A stretch of 64,000 nucleotides of DNA from Candidatus Litorirhabdus singularis (lineage in GTDB: Bacteria > Pseudomonadota > Gammaproteobacteria > Pseudomonadales > Halieaceae). Shown here piece by piece: positions 16,648-24,168 of the stretch. The stretch is from the NCBI RefSeq assembly GCF_026262625.1, contig NZ_SHNN01000003.1, forward strand, positions 496,001-560,000. The letters are read 5' to 3'. Under the pieces are notes generated by a model that searched no databases, was not told the DNA's origin, and saw nothing but the letters and a program-made list of their open reading frames with translations. The position numbers were made by a program, and so were the translations under genes. Position 1 is the stretch's first letter; the number at the start of each line of letters is the position of its first letter.

Positions 16648-17229
16648 TTGTCCTCATTACAGCGTTTAAAAGAATTCCTGTTGCGCCCCAGCGCGCGGTT
16701 TTCCGTGCTGGCGCTGCTGGTGACGGGTCTGGTGGCCGGCGTATTCGCCGTCGTCACATTTGAAACCGCATTGCACGCGACCAGCACCGAAGAATTTTGT
16801 ACCAGCTGCCACGAAATGGCTGACAATGCCGGCATGATGCTGGTGGGGACTACCCATTTCGAGAACAAGAGCGGCGTACGCCCCACCTGTTCAGACTGTC
16901 ATGTGCCACAAGAGTTCGTTCCGAAGATGATCCGCAAAGTTGAAGCGGCAAGGGAGGTATGGGGTTCAATAACCGGGGTTATCGATACTCCGGAGAAGTA
17001 TGCCGCCCATGCTCCGGTGATGAAGGCCAGGGAAATCGCCCGCCTGAAGGCCAATGATTCGCAGGAGTGTCGCAACTGCCACGATGTAGAGAAAATGCTG
17101 TGGTCGGCGCAAACCGCCAAGGCCCAGCAATACCACCGCCAGGGCAACGAGGAAGGCAAGACCTGCGTTGACTGTCATGCGGGCCTGACCCACACACCAG
17201 CCGAGCAGCAAGCTCCGGCACAACTCTAG
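16648..17229 (+). CDS. NapC/NirT-family tetraheme cytochrome c, CymA-like quinol dehydrogenase
   Basis: 193 residues from a TTG at 16648; an in-frame TAA at 16639-16641 rules out an earlier start and AAAGG lies ten bases before it. A single N-terminal membrane helix (about 17-38) is followed by four CXXCH sites: CTSCH, CSDCH, CRNCH and CVDCH, in the spacing of NapC/NirT/CymA proteins. These are anchored in the inner membrane, oxidise quinol and pass electrons to periplasmic carriers. It is the first of five closely spaced genes with multiheme cytochromes and an outer-membrane barrel, so CymA-like feeding of the conduit is the natural reading. Length matches CymA/NapC (about 190-200). Confidence 0.93.
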   Translation: MSSLQRLKEFLLRPSARFSVLALLVTGLVAGVFAVVTFETALHATSTEEFCTSCHEMADNAGMMLVGTTHFENKSGVRPTCSDCHVPQEFVPKMIRKVEAAREVWGSITGVIDTPEKYAAHAPVMKAREIARLKANDSQECRNCHDVEKMLWSAQTAKAQQYHRQGNEEGKTCVDCHAGLTHTPAEQQAPAQL

Positions 17230-17247
17230 CCGACGCAGGGGAGCACT

Positions 17248-18753
17248 ATGCGCAAAGTCTGGGTGGTATTATCTGTCCTGTTGCTAATATCGCCATTGGC
17301 ATGGAGCAGCGATTCTCAAAGCTGCCTCGGCTGTCATGACTTTGGTCCTGAGTCACCGGTACACCCCATGCTTGAGGGCCAGCACGGTAGCGCAGAACAG
17401 GGTTGCGCAAGCTGTCACGGTGCCAGTGTCGAACATAGCCAGCGCCCTACCATGCGTAGCCCTGACGTCAGCTTCGGGCCGCGCTGGGGCTCCAGCGTGG
17501 GAGATCAGGATGCGCCATGCCTTGACTGTCACCAGCAAGACGTTGCCAAGCACTGGCAGGACTCCCTGCATATGTCCAACCAGATGACCTGCGTCACCTG
17601 CCATGACCTGCATAGCGAGCAAGACAAGGTCCTTGCCGCCGGCGGCCAGCTTGCCGTTTGCAGCATCTGCCATAAACCTCAGCAGCATGGTATCCATGCC
17701 ATTTCCGAAAAGCTGGATGAAAACCCGGATTGCACCACCTGCCATAACCCCCACGCCGACCAGGTGCCACTGGGGGTGATGTTAGCCAATCGCTCCGCAG
17801 GCTGCCGCACCTGCCACGACCTGGTGCAAATGTCCGCAGAGGGTCAAAGCACCGCCAAAGCGCGCAGCTATCACAAGGTGATGGCGCAGCCTGATCGCAC
17901 CTGTCTGGACTGCCACAGTGGTATAGCCCATGGCCCCGCAGATGCCGTTGCACCCTTCGTACCGCTGGCCGTCGCCAGCAAAACAGTGACCTTATTTAAT
18001 CCAGGACAGTCTGATATTGACTGGATTCTTAGCGAACACCCAGGCGCCCAGCCGTTCCGCCAGGGCAGCAACTGCCAACAGTGTCACCGCGGCGACGAGG
18101 CTGCCATGGGAGAATCAATGGGTGCTAAAGCGCCCACTTCCCGCGATCTTGAGGTCAGCATCAGTACCGAGGGGCCAGACCTGGTGATGCAGGTGAGCTG
18201 GACCGGTGGCAGTGATGACAGCTCGCTGGCCCTGATGTGGGGCGATGGCGGCAATAACGCATTTCGCCGCGGCGGTTGTTGGGCGGCCTGTCACAGTGAT
18301 ATGCCGGGCATGAGTCGTGACCGCGGTCAGGCATTGGGCAAATACCTCGCCGATTCGCGGCAACAGGTCAAGCGTATTGGACAACCGGCACTGGTTAAGG
18401 ACAAGGCTGCGCTGGAAACCATGCTCGCCGCCGGCAACTTCGTGGAAATGTGGCGTGTAGAAATCGCAGCCGGTGACACGGCACAGGCCAATACCGCCAC
18501 GCTGCAGGCTGACCTGACCTGGTCAGACGACTCCCCGTTGCAGGCTACTGCGAGTTTCAAGGCGGGGCGCTGGCAAATGCTGCTGCGCAGACCACTGCAG
18601 GCGGGAGCAAGTCACAAGGCCTTCTCTGCCACCGGGAGCTATACCTTTGGTATGGCCTTGCACGGCAAACAACACCAGGGCGGCTCGCACTGGGTGTCAT
18701 TGCCGATGACGCTAAGCCTGGATGGTGAGGACACCGATTTCCGTGCGGACTAG
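17248..18753 (+). CDS. Ten-heme-site cytochrome: MtrA-like N-half fused to ethylbenzene-dehydrogenase-like heme domain
   Basis: 501 residues. Signal peptide 1-20 (cut near AWS-S). Nine CXXCH motifs start at residues 26, 53, 91, 115, 138, 162, 186, 219 and 276, and a CX3CH motif (CWAACH) at 344. The front half shares with the MtrA gene product the blocks CHGAS-x-EH and SFGPRW before a CL(T/D)CH site, so it derives from the same ancestor. From about residue 298 the protein resembles the heme-binding domain of ethylbenzene/DMS dehydrogenase gamma subunits (RGGCWAACHSDMPGM, then GKYLADS). It is periplasmic by prediction. Its position between the quinol dehydrogenase and MtrA suggests a periplasmic relay or branch point. 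GGGGAG five bases before the ATG supports the start. Architecture is unusual; function is inferred. Confidence 0.88.
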   Translation: MRKVWVVLSVLLLISPLAWSSDSQSCLGCHDFGPESPVHPMLEGQHGSAEQGCASCHGASVEHSQRPTMRSPDVSFGPRWGSSVGDQDAPCLDCHQQDVAKHWQDSLHMSNQMTCVTCHDLHSEQDKVLAAGGQLAVCSICHKPQQHGIHAISEKLDENPDCTTCHNPHADQVPLGVMLANRSAGCRTCHDLVQMSAEGQSTAKARSYHKVMAQPDRTCLDCHSGIAHGPADAVAPFVPLAVASKTVTLFNPGQSDIDWILSEHPGAQPFRQGSNCQQCHRGDEAAMGESMGAKAPTSRDLEVSISTEGPDLVMQVSWTGGSDDSSLALMWGDGGNNAFRRGGCWAACHSDMPGMSRDRGQALGKYLADSRQQVKRIGQPALVKDKAALETMLAAGNFVEMWRVEIAAGDTAQANTATLQADLTWSDDSPLQATASFKAGRWQMLLRRPLQAGASHKAFSATGSYTFGMALHGKQHQGGSHWVSLPMTLSLDGEDTDFRAD

Positions 18754-19627
18754 ACTCCTCTGTGGCGGCGCCCTATTGCTGCAATTAGTGCTGGGGCTGG
18801 GGCTGACGTTTAATGCCTCAGCGCAAGATTGCCAGGTGTGTCACACGGCAGCCGCCGATGAAGCCGTGCACGCCGTGTTTATGACCGCGCATGGGCGCCT
18901 TGATGGCGGCGGTACTGCGGCCTGCCAGTCCTGCCATGGCGCCAGCCCCGAGCACGCCGCCAAGCCTGGCAGCAATCCCCCTGAATACAGCTTTGGCCCG
19001 CGCTGGGCCATGCCGGTGGAAACCGCTAATGCAGCGTGCCTGACCTGCCACCGGGATGATGGCCAACTATTCTGGCTGGGCAGTGAACACGAACAGGAAG
19101 AAACCCGCTGTACCGACTGCCACCAACTGCACGTGAACCAGGACCCGGTACTAACCCCAGCGGGCGAGTTGGATAACTGCCTGCAATGCCATTCGCGAGT
19201 GGAGGCACAAATGCGCCTACCCTCCAGGCACCCAATCCTGGAAGGCAAGACCAGTTGCAGCGACTGCCACAACCCCCATGGCAGCAGCACCGATGCCGCA
19301 CTCCGCGAGCCGACTCTCAATGACCAATGTTATACCTGTCACGAGGAGACCCGCGGCCCCTATCTCTGGGAGCATCCGCCAGTGACCGAAGACTGCAGCC
19401 TGTGCCATGAATCACACGGCTCGGTGCACGATCAACTGCTGACAACCCGCGGGCCATTCCTATGCCAGCAATGTCACTCGGCTGCGTTTCACCCCAGTCT
19501 GGCCAATACCGGCAGCACGCCCAGTAATCGCAGCAGCAATCAGAACATGCTGGGGAAGAACTGTCTGAATTGCCACAGCCAGGTGCACGGCTCCAATCAT
19601 CCCTCCGGCTCAAGGCTAACCCGGTGA
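18722..19627 (+). CDS. mtrA: Decaheme periplasmic cytochrome c, MtrA/DmsE family
   Basis: 301 residues if begun at the ATG at 18722, overlapping the previous gene by 32 bases; a GTG at 18743 would cut the overlap and keep the signal peptide. The signal peptide ends near ASA-Q. Ten CXXCH sites follow: CQVCH, CQSCH, CLTCH, CTDCH, CLQCH, CSDCH, CYTCH, CSLCH, CQQCH and CLNCH. Number, spacing and length (about 300-330) match MtrA, DmsE and PioA, which sit inside an MtrB-type barrel and carry electrons through the outer membrane. The stop TGA overlaps the GTG of the barrel gene (GTGA), indicating coupled translation. DmsE is an alternative name, but no dms reductase genes are present. Confidence 0.93.
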   Translation: MVRTPISVRTRLLCGGALLLQLVLGLGLTFNASAQDCQVCHTAAADEAVHAVFMTAHGRLDGGGTAACQSCHGASPEHAAKPGSNPPEYSFGPRWAMPVETANAACLTCHRDDGQLFWLGSEHEQEETRCTDCHQLHVNQDPVLTPAGELDNCLQCHSRVEAQMRLPSRHPILEGKTSCSDCHNPHGSSTDAALREPTLNDQCYTCHEETRGPYLWEHPPVTEDCSLCHESHGSVHDQLLTTRGPFLCQQCHSAAFHPSLANTGSTPSNRSSNQNMLGKNCLNCHSQVHGSNHPSGSRLTR

Positions 19628-21849
19628 GGTGGTCGCTGCTGGCCCTGGCCGGATGCGCAGCGACCGCACTGGCGCAGGACCCCTTTGCGCCGCTGCTGGA
19701 GGACACGCGTCCACTGGCGACCCGCTGGCAGGTAGATTACAGCTCCAACCTCAAGCTGGGCGTGGGCTATGTCAGCGAGGACAACTTCAAGTTTGGCCAG
19801 TACAACGGCCTGCACAAGGAAGGCGCGGTGCTGCTGGGAGACCTGTTGTGGCGCGGTAACAACGACGCCTCCTATTGGCAACTAAGCGGCACCGATCTCG
19901 GCTTGCAGACTCGTGAGGCCGGTGCCCGCTGGGGCAAAACCGGCAAGTTTGAACTCAGTTTTGAGATGGACAACCAATTACAGGTGCGTAACGACAGTGG
20001 TCGCACTCCCTTTACCGGTACCGATGTATTGAGACTGCCGGAGGACTGGATCGGCGCCAGCGGCACCGGCGGGTTCACCAACCTGAACAACAGCCTGCAA
20101 GGCTTTGACCGCGAATTGAGTCGTGACCACTACGCCGTTGGACTGCAAGCGCAGCTGTCAGCCGCCTGGTCGCTCAGCGCCAACCTGGGCTACGAGGACA
20201 AGCAGGGTACGGCGGAAACCGGCGCCGCTTTTTACAGTGATGCCGCCGACGGCCATGCGGCAATCCTGCCGCAGGAGATTAATTACCAGACTAGCGATTT
20301 TGATCTTGCCCTGAGTTACAGCGGCGACCGCCTGCAACTGACCGGCAGCTGGCAGTACTCGGATTTTGATAACGATGCCGAGCTGCTGCGCTGGCAAAAC
20401 CCCTACAGCGGCTTTCAGACGACGGTGAGCTACCCGGCCGGCGAAGGCGGACTGGGGCAAGCGCCGGACAATACCCTCAACCGGGTTCGTTTATTGGGCG
20501 TCTATACCTTCAACCCGCGCTGGCGCCTGCAGGTAGACGGCAGTTTTGCGCGCACCGAGCAGGATCAGGACTTCGCTGACTACACCGTTAACCCGACCCT
20601 GCAAATTGATGAGCCATTGGCAGTCGCCAGCCTCGATGGCCAGGTGGATACCGGCGTACTGGATGCGCGGCTGTATTTTCGTCCGCTGCCAAAATTGAAT
20701 CTGGAGGCGCGTTTTCACGGCGAAGAGCGCAGTTACCAGGGTGACCGCAACGGCTACCGCTATGTTCCCGGTGACGCCGCCAGCCAGTCTGCAACGGCAC
20801 TGACAGTTTATAACACCCTGCACGACCATAGCCGCAATCGTTTCAGCCTGGAGGGCAGTTACCGACTGCCCTGGCGCAGCAAGCTCTGGCTGGAGTACGG
20901 CTATGAGGAGGTGGAGCGTAAAAATGCCGCTGTGGAAACAACTCAGGAAAATACCCTCGACCTGCGTTACCGCATCAGGCCACTGGACAGCGTCAGCACC
21001 ACACTCAAACTCGGCTACGCCGATCGCGCTGCGGACACCTACCGATGGGATCAGTCGTACTATGCGCGCCTGGATGCGGAGCTGATCAACGCCACCCCGG
21101 CCAGTCAGCGCTACAGTAACCACCCGCTGCTGAGCCAGTATCACCTGGCCAATCGCGAGCGCAGCGAACTGCAGTGGGATGTTAACTGGCAACCGGCGCA
21201 CGCCTGGGACGTGAGCGCGAACCTGCTGTGGCGCGAAGATGACTACGACAAAACCGACCTGGGGCTACGCAATGAAGAGCTGGCGCGGCTGGGCGTTAAC
21301 CTCGGCTGGTTGCCCAGCGCCGGGTTGCGTCTGGGGCTTTACGCCAGCTTTGACCGCTACCAGTCGCAACAGCGCGGGCGCAGTTTCCGCGGTGGCCAGG
21401 AAAAGAACGCCTTCGCCATTTACCCGCCGCTGCCACAGGCGTCCGACCCCGCGCGGGACTGGGACACAGGAACAGATGACGAGGCGACCACGCTGGGCCT
21501 GAATGCCCAATGGCAAGCGGGCGAGGCATTGAGTCTTAGTGCTGACTACAGTTATGTGGCGACCAATGCCGCCTATGACTTTGCCGCTGGCACTGCCAGT
21601 GGTGTTGATACCACGCCACTACCCGACGCTGAAAGTGAGCAGCACCACCTGCTGTTGGAAGCGGCCTGGCATTTACGCGACAACCTGTCGTTGCAGCTGG
21701 CTTATCAATATTGGAACTACAGCCAGGACGACTGGGCGCTGGCGGGAGTGACCACCAGCAGCATTGACAAGGTACTGACCCTGGGTGAACAGGAGGCGGA
21801 CGAGAGCCTCCACTATATAGGAACTTCAGTGATCTACCGCTGGCAATAA
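19624..21849 (+). CDS. mtrB: Outer-membrane beta-barrel of the MtrB/PioB family
   Basis: 741 residues from the GTG at 19624, which overlaps the mtrA stop by four bases. This start gives a normal signal peptide (RWSLLALAGCAATALA-Q) immediately. The rest is a long series of amphipathic beta strands rich in Tyr, Trp and Arg with DLRYRIRPLDSVSTTLKLGY-like strands, ending in VIYRWQ. Size and position match MtrB, DmsF and PioB, the porin sheath that holds MtrA and contacts the surface cytochrome. The Cys-x-x-Cys pair seen near the N-terminus of Shewanella MtrB is absent. A start at TTG 19570 would overlap mtrA by 58 bases and is less likely. Confidence 0.9.
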   Translation: MRWSLLALAGCAATALAQDPFAPLLEDTRPLATRWQVDYSSNLKLGVGYVSEDNFKFGQYNGLHKEGAVLLGDLLWRGNNDASYWQLSGTDLGLQTREAGARWGKTGKFELSFEMDNQLQVRNDSGRTPFTGTDVLRLPEDWIGASGTGGFTNLNNSLQGFDRELSRDHYAVGLQAQLSAAWSLSANLGYEDKQGTAETGAAFYSDAADGHAAILPQEINYQTSDFDLALSYSGDRLQLTGSWQYSDFDNDAELLRWQNPYSGFQTTVSYPAGEGGLGQAPDNTLNRVRLLGVYTFNPRWRLQVDGSFARTEQDQDFADYTVNPTLQIDEPLAVASLDGQVDTGVLDARLYFRPLPKLNLEARFHGEERSYQGDRNGYRYVPGDAASQSATALTVYNTLHDHSRNRFSLEGSYRLPWRSKLWLEYGYEEVERKNAAVETTQENTLDLRYRIRPLDSVSTTLKLGYADRAADTYRWDQSYYARLDAELINATPASQRYSNHPLLSQYHLANRERSELQWDVNWQPAHAWDVSANLLWREDDYDKTDLGLRNEELARLGVNLGWLPSAGLRLGLYASFDRYQSQQRGRSFRGGQEKNAFAIYPPLPQASDPARDWDTGTDDEATTLGLNAQWQAGEALSLSADYSYVATNAAYDFAAGTASGVDTTPLPDAESEQHHLLLEAAWHLRDNLSLQLAYQYWNYSQDDWALAGVTTSSIDKVLTLGEQEADESLHYIGTSVIYRWQ

Positions 21850-21882
21850 CAGGCGCCACGAAGCTGAGAAAAGGTGAACGAG

Positions 21883-24168
21883 ATGTTGAAGAAAGTCACA
21901 AACTTATTCTTGATGCTGGCACTGACCGCGGCTGTCAGTGCCTGCGGTGGCGGTAGCGGCGGCGACCGCGCCGAGGGCGTGCAACCTGGTCCAGATGAGC
22001 CTGGTGGCCAAGTCCCTGTGCCCCCTCCAGAGTTACCGGCTGCGCCCGGCTATGCCGATGCAACGCAAGTTTTCGCCTTTATCACCGCGGCTCAAATTCC
22101 GGAATCCGGCTTCACCGAAGTTACTTTTCAGGTAACCGACGAAAAAGGTGATGCCATTGTCGATCTGGAGCTGGAAGATGTGCGCTTTGTATTGTCCAAG
22201 TTGCGGGCCAGCGAGCTGGGCGGTGCCACCGGCGAGTGGCAATCCTACATCAACACAATCGAAGAGCCAGATAGCAGCGTGGGTCCCGGCACCGAGCCGC
22301 GACTGCAGGCGACTTATGAGGATTTCAGGGCCGGCGGCGACCTGCTCAACAACCTCGATGGTACTTACACCTATACCTACGTCACCGACGTGAACAACCC
22401 GGACCCTGACATTCTGGCCCAGGCGCAGGCCGAGGATCTTGATGTCAGTTACGAGCCCGAGCGCCCGCACCGCGTTGCCATCCAGTTCGGCGGCGGCCCC
22501 AATCCAATCAACCCCTACTACGACTGGGTGCCTGCCACCGGGCTTGCCGCAGCGCCTGCCATGCAGATTGCCGCGACCGCGAACTGCAACCGCTGTCACG
22601 ACCCCTTGGCTATTCACGGCGGCGGCCGCATTGAGGTGGAGTATTGCGTGACCTGTCACAACCCCGGCTCGACTGACGCCCACAGCGGCAATAGCGTGGC
22701 TATGAAAAACATGGTGCACAAGATCCACATGGGCGCCAACCTGCCCAGCGTGCAGGCGGGAGGTAGTTACATTATCTATGGCTATAGGAATAGCGAACAT
22801 GACTACTCGCATGTGCAGTACCCGCAGGATCCCCGCAACTGCCAGAACTGCCACGTTGGCACCGGCACCAGTAATGAGTTTTATCCTGATGTAGCGTTGA
22901 CCAACCAGGGCGATAACTGGGCCGAGTACGCCACCCGCGACACCTGTGGCAGCTGCCATGATCTGGTCGACTGGGATACCCACGCCCGTGGCCAGCCCGA
23001 TGACAGTCGCTGTGCCAGCTGTCACCAGGAAGGCGGCCGTGCCGGCAGTATCGCCAGCAGCCACGCTCTGCTGATTCGTGATGAAGCCGCCCGTTATGAC
23101 GCCGTGGTAGAACACGTGGCCAGTTCCGGGCCTGGCGACAAACCCAGCGTCGACATCCGTGTCACCAACCCGTATACGGGTGAGGATTACGATATTCTTG
23201 GTGACGATCCGTTTATAAATGATGGCGCTTCACTCAACGTCAAACTGGCCTGGTCGACCACCGATTACACCAACACCGGCAACGGTGAAACCAACGCCAG
23301 TACCATTTCCCAGAGTGCACTGAGCAGCGCGACCCCGAACGGCGATGGCAGCTTTAATGTATTGTTTGACCAGGCATTACCGGACTCAGGAACGCCACCC
23401 GGAGTGGCGGCCAGTGGCAGCGGCGTGGCGATCATTGATGGTCATCCCACCGTCGTCATAGAGGAGGGAGAGGACCCGGAAAATATCCCTATCCGCGATG
23501 CGCATGCGTTTTTCTCCATTGATGAGGCTGATGGCATGCCGGTCGAAAGGCGTGATTCGGCAGATATAGGTGCCTGCCTGAGTTGCCACCAGAACCTGGT
23601 ACTGCATGGCCAAAATCGTGCTGACAACCTGCAAAGTTGCGTCGCCTGCCACAACCCGCGCAACACCGATCGCGATACGCGCGCTGTTGCAAACAACCCT
23701 CCTACCGATGGCAAGCAGGAAGAATCCATCGACATGAAAACCATGATTCATGCCATTCACGCCGCGGGCATGAGGGAAAATCCGCTGCAGATTGTCGGCT
23801 TTCGCGGCTTCAATACCTACGTGTTCGACGAAGAGCATGTGCAATACCCAGGTCGGCTTGGCAACTGCGTAACCTGCCATGGCGATGATGGCTTTGAGCT
23901 ACCCCTGGCCGCCGGCGTATTGGCCACTACCGTGGACACCGGCAGCGATCCCAGCGACCCGGCAGATGACCTGGTCACGACAGCGGCAACAGCGGTCTGT
24001 GCCAGCTGCCATGATTCCGACTTGGCCACTGGACACATGATCGATTTCGGCGGACGCTTTGCCACCACACAGGCAGCCATCGATGACGGCACAGAGGCCG
24101 AGGGGTGCGACCTCTGCCACGCCGCAGGGCGTGATCATGAGGTGCGCCGACTGCATGGTGTAGATTAG
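21883..24168 (+). CDS. Decaheme surface lipoprotein cytochrome c, OmcA/MtrC family
   Basis: About 761 residues from the ATG at 21883, which has AAGG eight bases upstream; a GTG at 21874 is possible. A lipoprotein signal ends in AVSA-C (Cys about 21) followed by a Gly/Ser-rich linker. Ten CXXCH motifs form two pentaheme groups: CNRCH, CVTCH, CQNCH, CGSCH, CASCH in the middle and CLSCH, CVACH, CVTCH, CASCH, CDLCH at the end. The VHKIHMG and IHAIHAAG blocks and HVQYP repeats in both groups are characteristic of OmcA/MtrC. These proteins are exposed on the cell surface and reduce minerals, electrodes, shuttles or partner cells. It closes the conduit operon, 33 bases after mtrB. Confidence 0.93.
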   Translation: MLKKVTNLFLMLALTAAVSACGGGSGGDRAEGVQPGPDEPGGQVPVPPPELPAAPGYADATQVFAFITAAQIPESGFTEVTFQVTDEKGDAIVDLELEDVRFVLSKLRASELGGATGEWQSYINTIEEPDSSVGPGTEPRLQATYEDFRAGGDLLNNLDGTYTYTYVTDVNNPDPDILAQAQAEDLDVSYEPERPHRVAIQFGGGPNPINPYYDWVPATGLAAAPAMQIAATANCNRCHDPLAIHGGGRIEVEYCVTCHNPGSTDAHSGNSVAMKNMVHKIHMGANLPSVQAGGSYIIYGYRNSEHDYSHVQYPQDPRNCQNCHVGTGTSNEFYPDVALTNQGDNWAEYATRDTCGSCHDLVDWDTHARGQPDDSRCASCHQEGGRAGSIASSHALLIRDEAARYDAVVEHVASSGPGDKPSVDIRVTNPYTGEDYDILGDDPFINDGASLNVKLAWSTTDYTNTGNGETNASTISQSALSSATPNGDGSFNVLFDQALPDSGTPPGVAASGSGVAIIDGHPTVVIEEGEDPENIPIRDAHAFFSIDEADGMPVERRDSADIGACLSCHQNLVLHGQNRADNLQSCVACHNPRNTDRDTRAVANNPPTDGKQEESIDMKTMIHAIHAAGMRENPLQIVGFRGFNTYVFDEEHVQYPGRLGNCVTCHGDDGFELPLAAGVLATTVDTGSDPSDPADDLVTTAATAVCASCHDSDLATGHMIDFGGRFATTQAAIDDGTEAEGCDLCHAAGRDHEVRRLHGVD

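Follow-up and report, generated by a model that had tools for sequence, protein, structure and literature searches.

Five adjacent plus-strand genes at positions 16648-24168 of the window (the whole stretch of 64,000 nucleotides analyzed here) form an operon that is a member of the published Group 6 of mtrCAB clusters. We consider it likely that this operon encodes an electron conduit linking the quinone pool of the inner membrane with the cell surface, whose most likely use would be as an auxiliary electron outlet. The existence of such clusters is already known, and what is new, as far as the literature searched shows, is the constraint imposed by the quinone pool, a conserved CX3CH site in the accessory cytochrome of the operon, and a wider distribution of the ethylbenzene dehydrogenase-like (EB_dh) module that carries this site. 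The host is a marine, normally oxygen-breathing bacterium of the family Halieaceae, whose draft genome of 4.83 Mb (20 contigs, 99.1% complete) contains the window on a 601-kb contig.

The operon encodes a complete set of MtrCAB proteins

The genes follow the order cymA-like, hybrid, mtrA, mtrB, and mtrC. The cymA-like gene (16648..17229, plus strand, TTG start, 193 residues) encodes a predicted inner-membrane tetraheme quinol dehydrogenase of the NapC/NirT family, and the second gene (17248..18753, plus strand, 501 residues) encodes the mtrA-DOMON hybrid cytochrome. They are followed by mtrA (18722..19627, plus strand, 301 residues), encoding a predicted periplasmic, barrel-embedded decaheme cytochrome, by mtrB (19624..21849, plus strand, GTG start, 741 residues), encoding an outer membrane barrel of the MtrB/PioB family, and by mtrC (21874..24168, plus strand, 764 residues), encoding a decaheme lipoprotein of the OmcA/MtrC family with a lipobox-like VSAC motif. 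Two of the junctions are gaps of 18 and 24 bases and two are overlaps: the hybrid and mtrA open reading frames (ORFs) share 32 bases, while the TGA stop codon of mtrA (19625-19627) overlaps by 4 bases (GTGA) the mtrB start codon, a GTG at 19624. Translation of mtrC could begin at the GTG at 21874 or at an ATG at 21883. A recount of CXXCH motifs gave 4 in the cymA-like protein, 9 plus one CX3CH in the hybrid, 10 in MtrA, none in MtrB, and 10 in MtrC. These counts, the five adjacent ORFs, and the GTGA overlap all agree with a preliminary description of the locus. When the residues of each protein were shuffled 2,000 times, two CXXCH motifs at most were obtained every time, and no other frame with at least two of them was found in the window. 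All operon frames are intact and all heme sites are kept.

Profile searches placed MtrA, MtrB, and MtrC, all three, above the curated NCBIfam cutoffs. MtrA scored 265.6 bits against the DmsE/MtrA model TIGR03508 (cutoff, 192.2), MtrB 373.6 bits against TIGR03509 (cutoff, 240.05), and MtrC 484.7 bits against TIGR03507 (cutoff, 209.3). The barrel also matched the Pfam family MtrB_PioB (PF11854) over its full length (1-635/635; E = 6.7e-119), and MtrC additionally contained two PF22113 domains and one PF22112 domain. The cymA-like protein matched PF03264 (E = 6.6e-62) but scored 224.9 bits against the NapC/NirT model TIGR02161, under its cutoff of 310.6. Solved relatives of the operon proteins are chains A to C of 6r2q (an MtrCAB complex), MtrF (3pmq), and OmcA (4lmh); MtrB matched 6r2q_B with an E value of 1e-26 and MtrC matched 3pmq with an E value of 1.2e-39. 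In the PDB, chain 6r2q_A is labeled cystathionine beta-synthase, apparently a labeling error by the depositors. The locus thus combines an MtrA above its cutoff, a full-length barrel, and a decaheme predicted surface lipoprotein of the OmcA/MtrC family, encoded by adjacent mtrA, mtrB, and mtrC genes. The preliminary description had read it as a trans-envelope electron conduit with its barrel in the MtrB family and its last cytochrome in the OmcA/MtrC family; both placements held, and the reading is backed by these profile searches, by synteny in relatives, and by published precedent.

The operon belongs to Group 6, a recurrent feature of Halieaceae

A published survey found mtrCAB in 148 species and defined the Halieaceae-dominated Group 6, with an accessory cytochrome termed "nonaheme mtrA-DOMON" (Baker et al. 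2022, PMC8805035). The operon shares with this group its family, the mtrA-mtrB-mtrC order, a single Group 6-type MtrC, a nonaheme MtrA-family-DOMON cytochrome, and a tetraheme inner-membrane partner. It differs in not lying immediately upstream of hemH, in the tenth, CX3CH site reported here, and in that no neighboring small monoheme gene was found in the window. As the preliminary description had suggested, we searched related genomes with profiles and checked synteny. A strong MtrB match was present in about 14 of 36 same-family genomes, and adjacency of mtrA, mtrB, and mtrC was kept in these loci wherever the contig permitted, the exception being the divergent locus L044. The hybrid gene stands next to mtrABC in Haliea, Parahaliea maris HSLHS9, Seongchinamella, Kineobactrum, and Pseudohalioglobus, as well as in a few Pseudomonadales and Ketobacter bins, where a second MtrC is encoded; a second MtrC has been reported for non-Halieaceae members of Group 6 (Baker et al. 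2022, PMC8805035). In a quick MtrC tree, the window's protein fell within Halieaceae, in a clade with two Halieaceae metagenome-assembled genomes (MAGs) (support, 98). Sequence identity to the operons of relatives is approximately 45 to 70%, with invariant heme motifs. Such a conduit had initially seemed an unexpected partner for a degrader, a view that does not survive the recurrence of mtrCAB in Halieaceae, both in the published survey and in the genomes searched here. Clusters of the same type occur in a MAG named Biocath_Gamma_022 and on a contig labeled metal_reducer, which are names only, and no experimental test of any Group 6 member was found in the literature consulted.

Several observations were made in the relatives themselves. 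Two Halieaceae genomes, G007 (loci L041 and L057) and G031 (locus L043), carry PufLM reaction-center genes (PF00124) together with mtrAB, which makes them candidates for aerobic anoxygenic phototrophy combined with an Mtr wire. Among the nearest MtrC relatives of the window is the PL25a MAG (L057). In the single-contig genome G032, the hybrid gene and mtrB are each split over two frames (L045:10404-15346), reflecting either sequencing errors or real decay.

Genomic location and base composition are compatible with a separate insertion or relocation

Most Halieaceae Group 6 clusters are located immediately upstream of hemH, with two exceptions listed (Baker et al. 2022, PMC8805035). Among the relatives' loci that we searched, 14 of 35 contained hemH (some genomes being counted twice), directly downstream of mtrC where coordinates were compared. 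In the window, the gene after mtrC encodes a cation efflux protein rather than hemH, and the host hemH is found at C14:147005, 365 kb from the operon. The GC content of the operon is 0.599 versus 0.529 and 0.547 for its flanks, i.e., 5 to 7 points higher, while the operon-minus-flank difference in seven relatives ranged from -0.004 to +0.035. Outside the operon, the flanks have almost nothing in common with the relatives' loci. Relatives do encode copies of the left neighbor, a saccharopine dehydrogenase (61 to 77% identical), but with almost none of the window's other neighbors beside them, and the flank itself is therefore not conserved. No empty insertion site was found among relatives with so little flank conservation. 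Location and GC content fit a separate insertion or relocation of the operon.

The raised GC content, the unshared flanks, and the distant hemH are also what would be expected if the operon were a nonfunctional relic of horizontal transfer, carried as recent cargo only. Against this stand the intact, overlapping frames with every heme site retained, and the moderate identity to relatives combined with invariant heme motifs, which implies selection. We consider a relic extremely unlikely.

The host is probably not limited to oxygen and appears to encode only a ubiquinone pathway

The neighborhood of the operon includes genes for an RPE65-type carotenoid oxygenase, a P450, a Rieske ring-hydroxylase, acyl-CoA enzymes, and efflux, which is consistent with the aerobic degrader initially proposed. 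The host is nevertheless not simply aerobic, as a napA-napB-napC set, read from translations, is present on another contig (C11; L046:6734-10305) and provides a potential for periplasmic nitrate reduction. Together with three heme-copper oxidase matches and CcmF in the genome, this set indicates that oxygen is probably not the sole acceptor and fits a host whose respiration is in part anaerobic.

The presence of NapA bears on a further reading, in which the operon would be a DmsEF-type module respiring a soluble extracellular substrate (DMSO- or nitrate-like) with a reductase encoded elsewhere. The decaheme protein falls within a "DmsE family" model, which also covers MtrA. However, the last gene of the operon encodes an OmcA/MtrC-family decaheme cytochrome of the cell surface, no molybdoenzyme is adjacent, and NapA has its own napB and napC alongside, making this reading very unlikely. 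The absence of a reductase from the operon, noted in the preliminary description, was confirmed, but neither the acceptor nor the direction of electron flow deduced from it can be read from that absence.

No MenD match over the cutoff was obtained in the host or in any same-family genome searched (seven control genomes passed), an absence that for the host rests on a draft genome that is 99% complete; the sole match over the cutoff came from another family of the order. MenD matches under the cutoff were judged to be other thiamine-diphosphate enzymes. MqnA/MqnD (PF02621) was found in none of the 38 genomes searched, and four controls were positive. UbiA is present in the host (331.8 bits; cutoff, 275.45), and most Cellvibrionales have ubiquinone 8 as their major quinone (Spring et al. 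2015, PMC4391266). Since no menaquinone pathway was found while UbiA is present, the conduit is probably fed from ubiquinol, unlike that of Shewanella, judging from gene content.

MtrCAB respiration in its textbook form depends on menaquinol. The potential of ubiquinol is higher than that of menaquinol, so that most iron oxides would be uphill to reduce. With ubiquinol as its source, a conduit could pass electrons to Mn(IV) or strongly oxidizing shuttles, whereas crystalline iron oxides would hardly be within its reach; it would be equally suited to electron uptake. The recurrence of MtrCAB in a family without detected menaquinone genes constitutes a natural test of whether such a wire can run from ubiquinol and, if so, in which direction. 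Carrier strains exist (Kineobactrum sediminis F02, Seongchinamella spp., Pseudohalioglobus spp., and Parahaliea maris), which makes the question testable. A transferred mtrCAB cluster has been said to need menaquinone genes, ubiquinone being unmentioned (Baker et al. 2022, PMC8805035).

The match to Shewanella-type extracellular electron transfer proposed initially therefore stands in part. The two systems share a homologous barrel, a decaheme MtrA, a decaheme surface lipoprotein, and a NapC-type quinol dehydrogenase. In the window, however, mtrC comes last (first in Shewanella) and cymA lies inside the operon. The periplasmic relay of Shewanella is FccA/CctA, whereas that of the window is a multiheme-DOMON fusion reported from Group 6 only. 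In addition, Shewanella uses a menaquinone pool, while only ubiquinone genes were found in the host genome.

Outward electron flow is favored

In the path that we propose, ubiquinol would be oxidized by the CymA-type tetraheme protein, which would pass electrons to the periplasmic mtrA-DOMON relay, from there to the MtrA decaheme within the MtrB barrel, and finally to MtrC, the decaheme lipoprotein at the cell surface. The inner part of this path is not fixed, because two Halieaceae loci (L038 and L039) have the operon without the hybrid gene and several relatives lack a close CymA adjoining it. Outward flow appears fairly likely, and its most likely use would be as an auxiliary electron outlet at oxygen shortage. 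Acceptors of fairly high potential would be favored because ubiquinone is the only quinone for which a pathway was found; they may include Mn(IV) oxides, ligand-bound Fe(III), oxidized shuttles, or an electrode.

Alternatively, the conduit could be inward or reversible and work in the manner of Pio/Mto systems. MtrC would then accept electrons from a donor such as Fe(II), Mn(II), a cathode, or a partner cell, and these would reach ubiquinone and an oxidase by way of MtrAB and the relay. The operon and PioAB/MtoAB have in common an MtrA- and MtrB-family pair and a ubiquinone host, ubiquinone being the expected partner of uptake systems. The three heme-copper oxidase matches, the cluster of a close relative from the MAG called Biocath_Gamma_022 (by name only), and the co-occurrence of reaction-center genes and mtrAB in the two photosynthetic genomes G007 and G031 are compatible with uptake. 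However, the window encodes an OmcA/MtrC-family surface MtrC, a component absent from known Pio/Mto systems, and its operon contains no extra small electron-carrier gene such as HiPIP PioC or MtoD. Furthermore, neither RuBisCO nor a photosynthetic reaction center (PF00124) was found in the host genome; uptake for carbon fixation is therefore unlikely, and inward flow would supply maintenance energy to a heterotroph. Photosynthetic electron uptake in the host was ruled out on the same two absences. Overall, we regard inward or reversible flow as rather unlikely.

The hybrid cytochrome carries a conserved candidate tenth heme site

The hybrid consists of a multiheme N-terminal part, a linker with heme 9, and a C-terminal EB_dh/DOMON domain. 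Residues 1-235 contain eight CXXCH motifs, the first part being most like the N-terminal half of MtrA/DmsE and the remainder NapC-like, and residues 240-501 contain heme 9 and the EB_dh domain (PF09459; E = 8.6e-12). Accordingly, the profiles matched were TIGR03508 (partial), PF03264, PF22678, and PF09459. In the AlphaFold model, confidence is high mainly for the C-terminal domain; the N-terminal multiheme half, with block means mostly <60 (low confidence), was left uninterpreted. In a Foldseek comparison, the C-terminal domain best matched EbdC, the gamma subunit of ethylbenzene dehydrogenase (2ivf_C; E = 2.5e-9), and next best a nitrite oxidoreductase subunit (7b04_C; E = 1.8e-7), and the domain is thus predicted to have the ethylbenzene dehydrogenase gamma-subunit fold. 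In contrast to EbdC-type subunits, it is fused to a multiheme cytochrome, carries an invariant CX3CH, and has no molybdopterin alpha or Fe-S beta subunit among the operon genes.

The CX3CH site (CWAACH, residues 344-349; 18277..18294, plus strand) is invariant in all 23 sequences aligned, as are Cys276, Cys279, and His280 of heme 9 and His481, while Met330 is conserved in at least 90%. Every EB_dh-bearing homologue in the genome-contig set has C-x3-C-H (CWAACH or CFAACH, once CWGVCH), although this set is biased because one of its two search patterns contained the CX3CH motif. In an independent family-level set, found via MtrB, the site was present in six of six EB_dh bearers. This invariance suggests that the site probably binds a tenth covalent heme, for which His481 or Met330 is a possible distal ligand.

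The EB_dh module occurs beyond Group 6

In Methyloprofundus bins (L072 and L074), the gene order is cymA, a gene for a 312-residue EB_dh protein (one CXXCH and one CX3CH), mtrA, and mtrB. The same small EB_dh protein is encoded before mtrA-mtrB in bins of Rhodospirillales, Acetobacteraceae, and "Marinimicrobia". The N-terminal half, in turn, also occurs by itself: an eight-heme protein that aligns to this half of the hybrid and lacks the EB_dh part is encoded in three Halieaceae loci (L034, L040, and L068). With the module free-standing in some lineages and the N-terminal half alone in some Halieaceae loci, the hybrid resembles two separable relays that have been fused at the position between CymA and MtrA. 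The Group 6 cytochromes have been called unique to Group 6 (Baker et al. 2022, PMC8805035); the C-terminal EB_dh module, at least, is not. A literature search combining mtrB and ethylbenzene dehydrogenase yielded no description of an EB_dh module beside mtrAB.

Its free-standing and fused forms make the module a concrete candidate for the step that is missing in the periplasm. As a tentative possibility, the two-heme EB_dh module may be a general, unrecognized MtrAB relay that stands alone in several distant lineages and is joined to an octaheme arm in Halieaceae. It would then set the potential to a level at which a cell with ubiquinone alone could drive, or be fed by, MtrCAB.

An identification of the published "ohc" with the eight-heme protein of L034, L040, and L068 was considered and dropped because a different octaheme protein is also encoded in L038 and L040. 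There, it forms a divergent pair with a distant NapC-like tetraheme protein beside the mtr operon (L038:4705-6701 and L040:4911-6802), a pair not seen in the window. In three loci of Rhodospirillaceae or "Marinimicrobia" bins (L076, L078, and L088), where no MtrC was found, two genes for larger proteins, one of which has a Tat-like start, come after the EB_dh-mtrA-mtrB genes. These loci look like a different MtrAB-type system.
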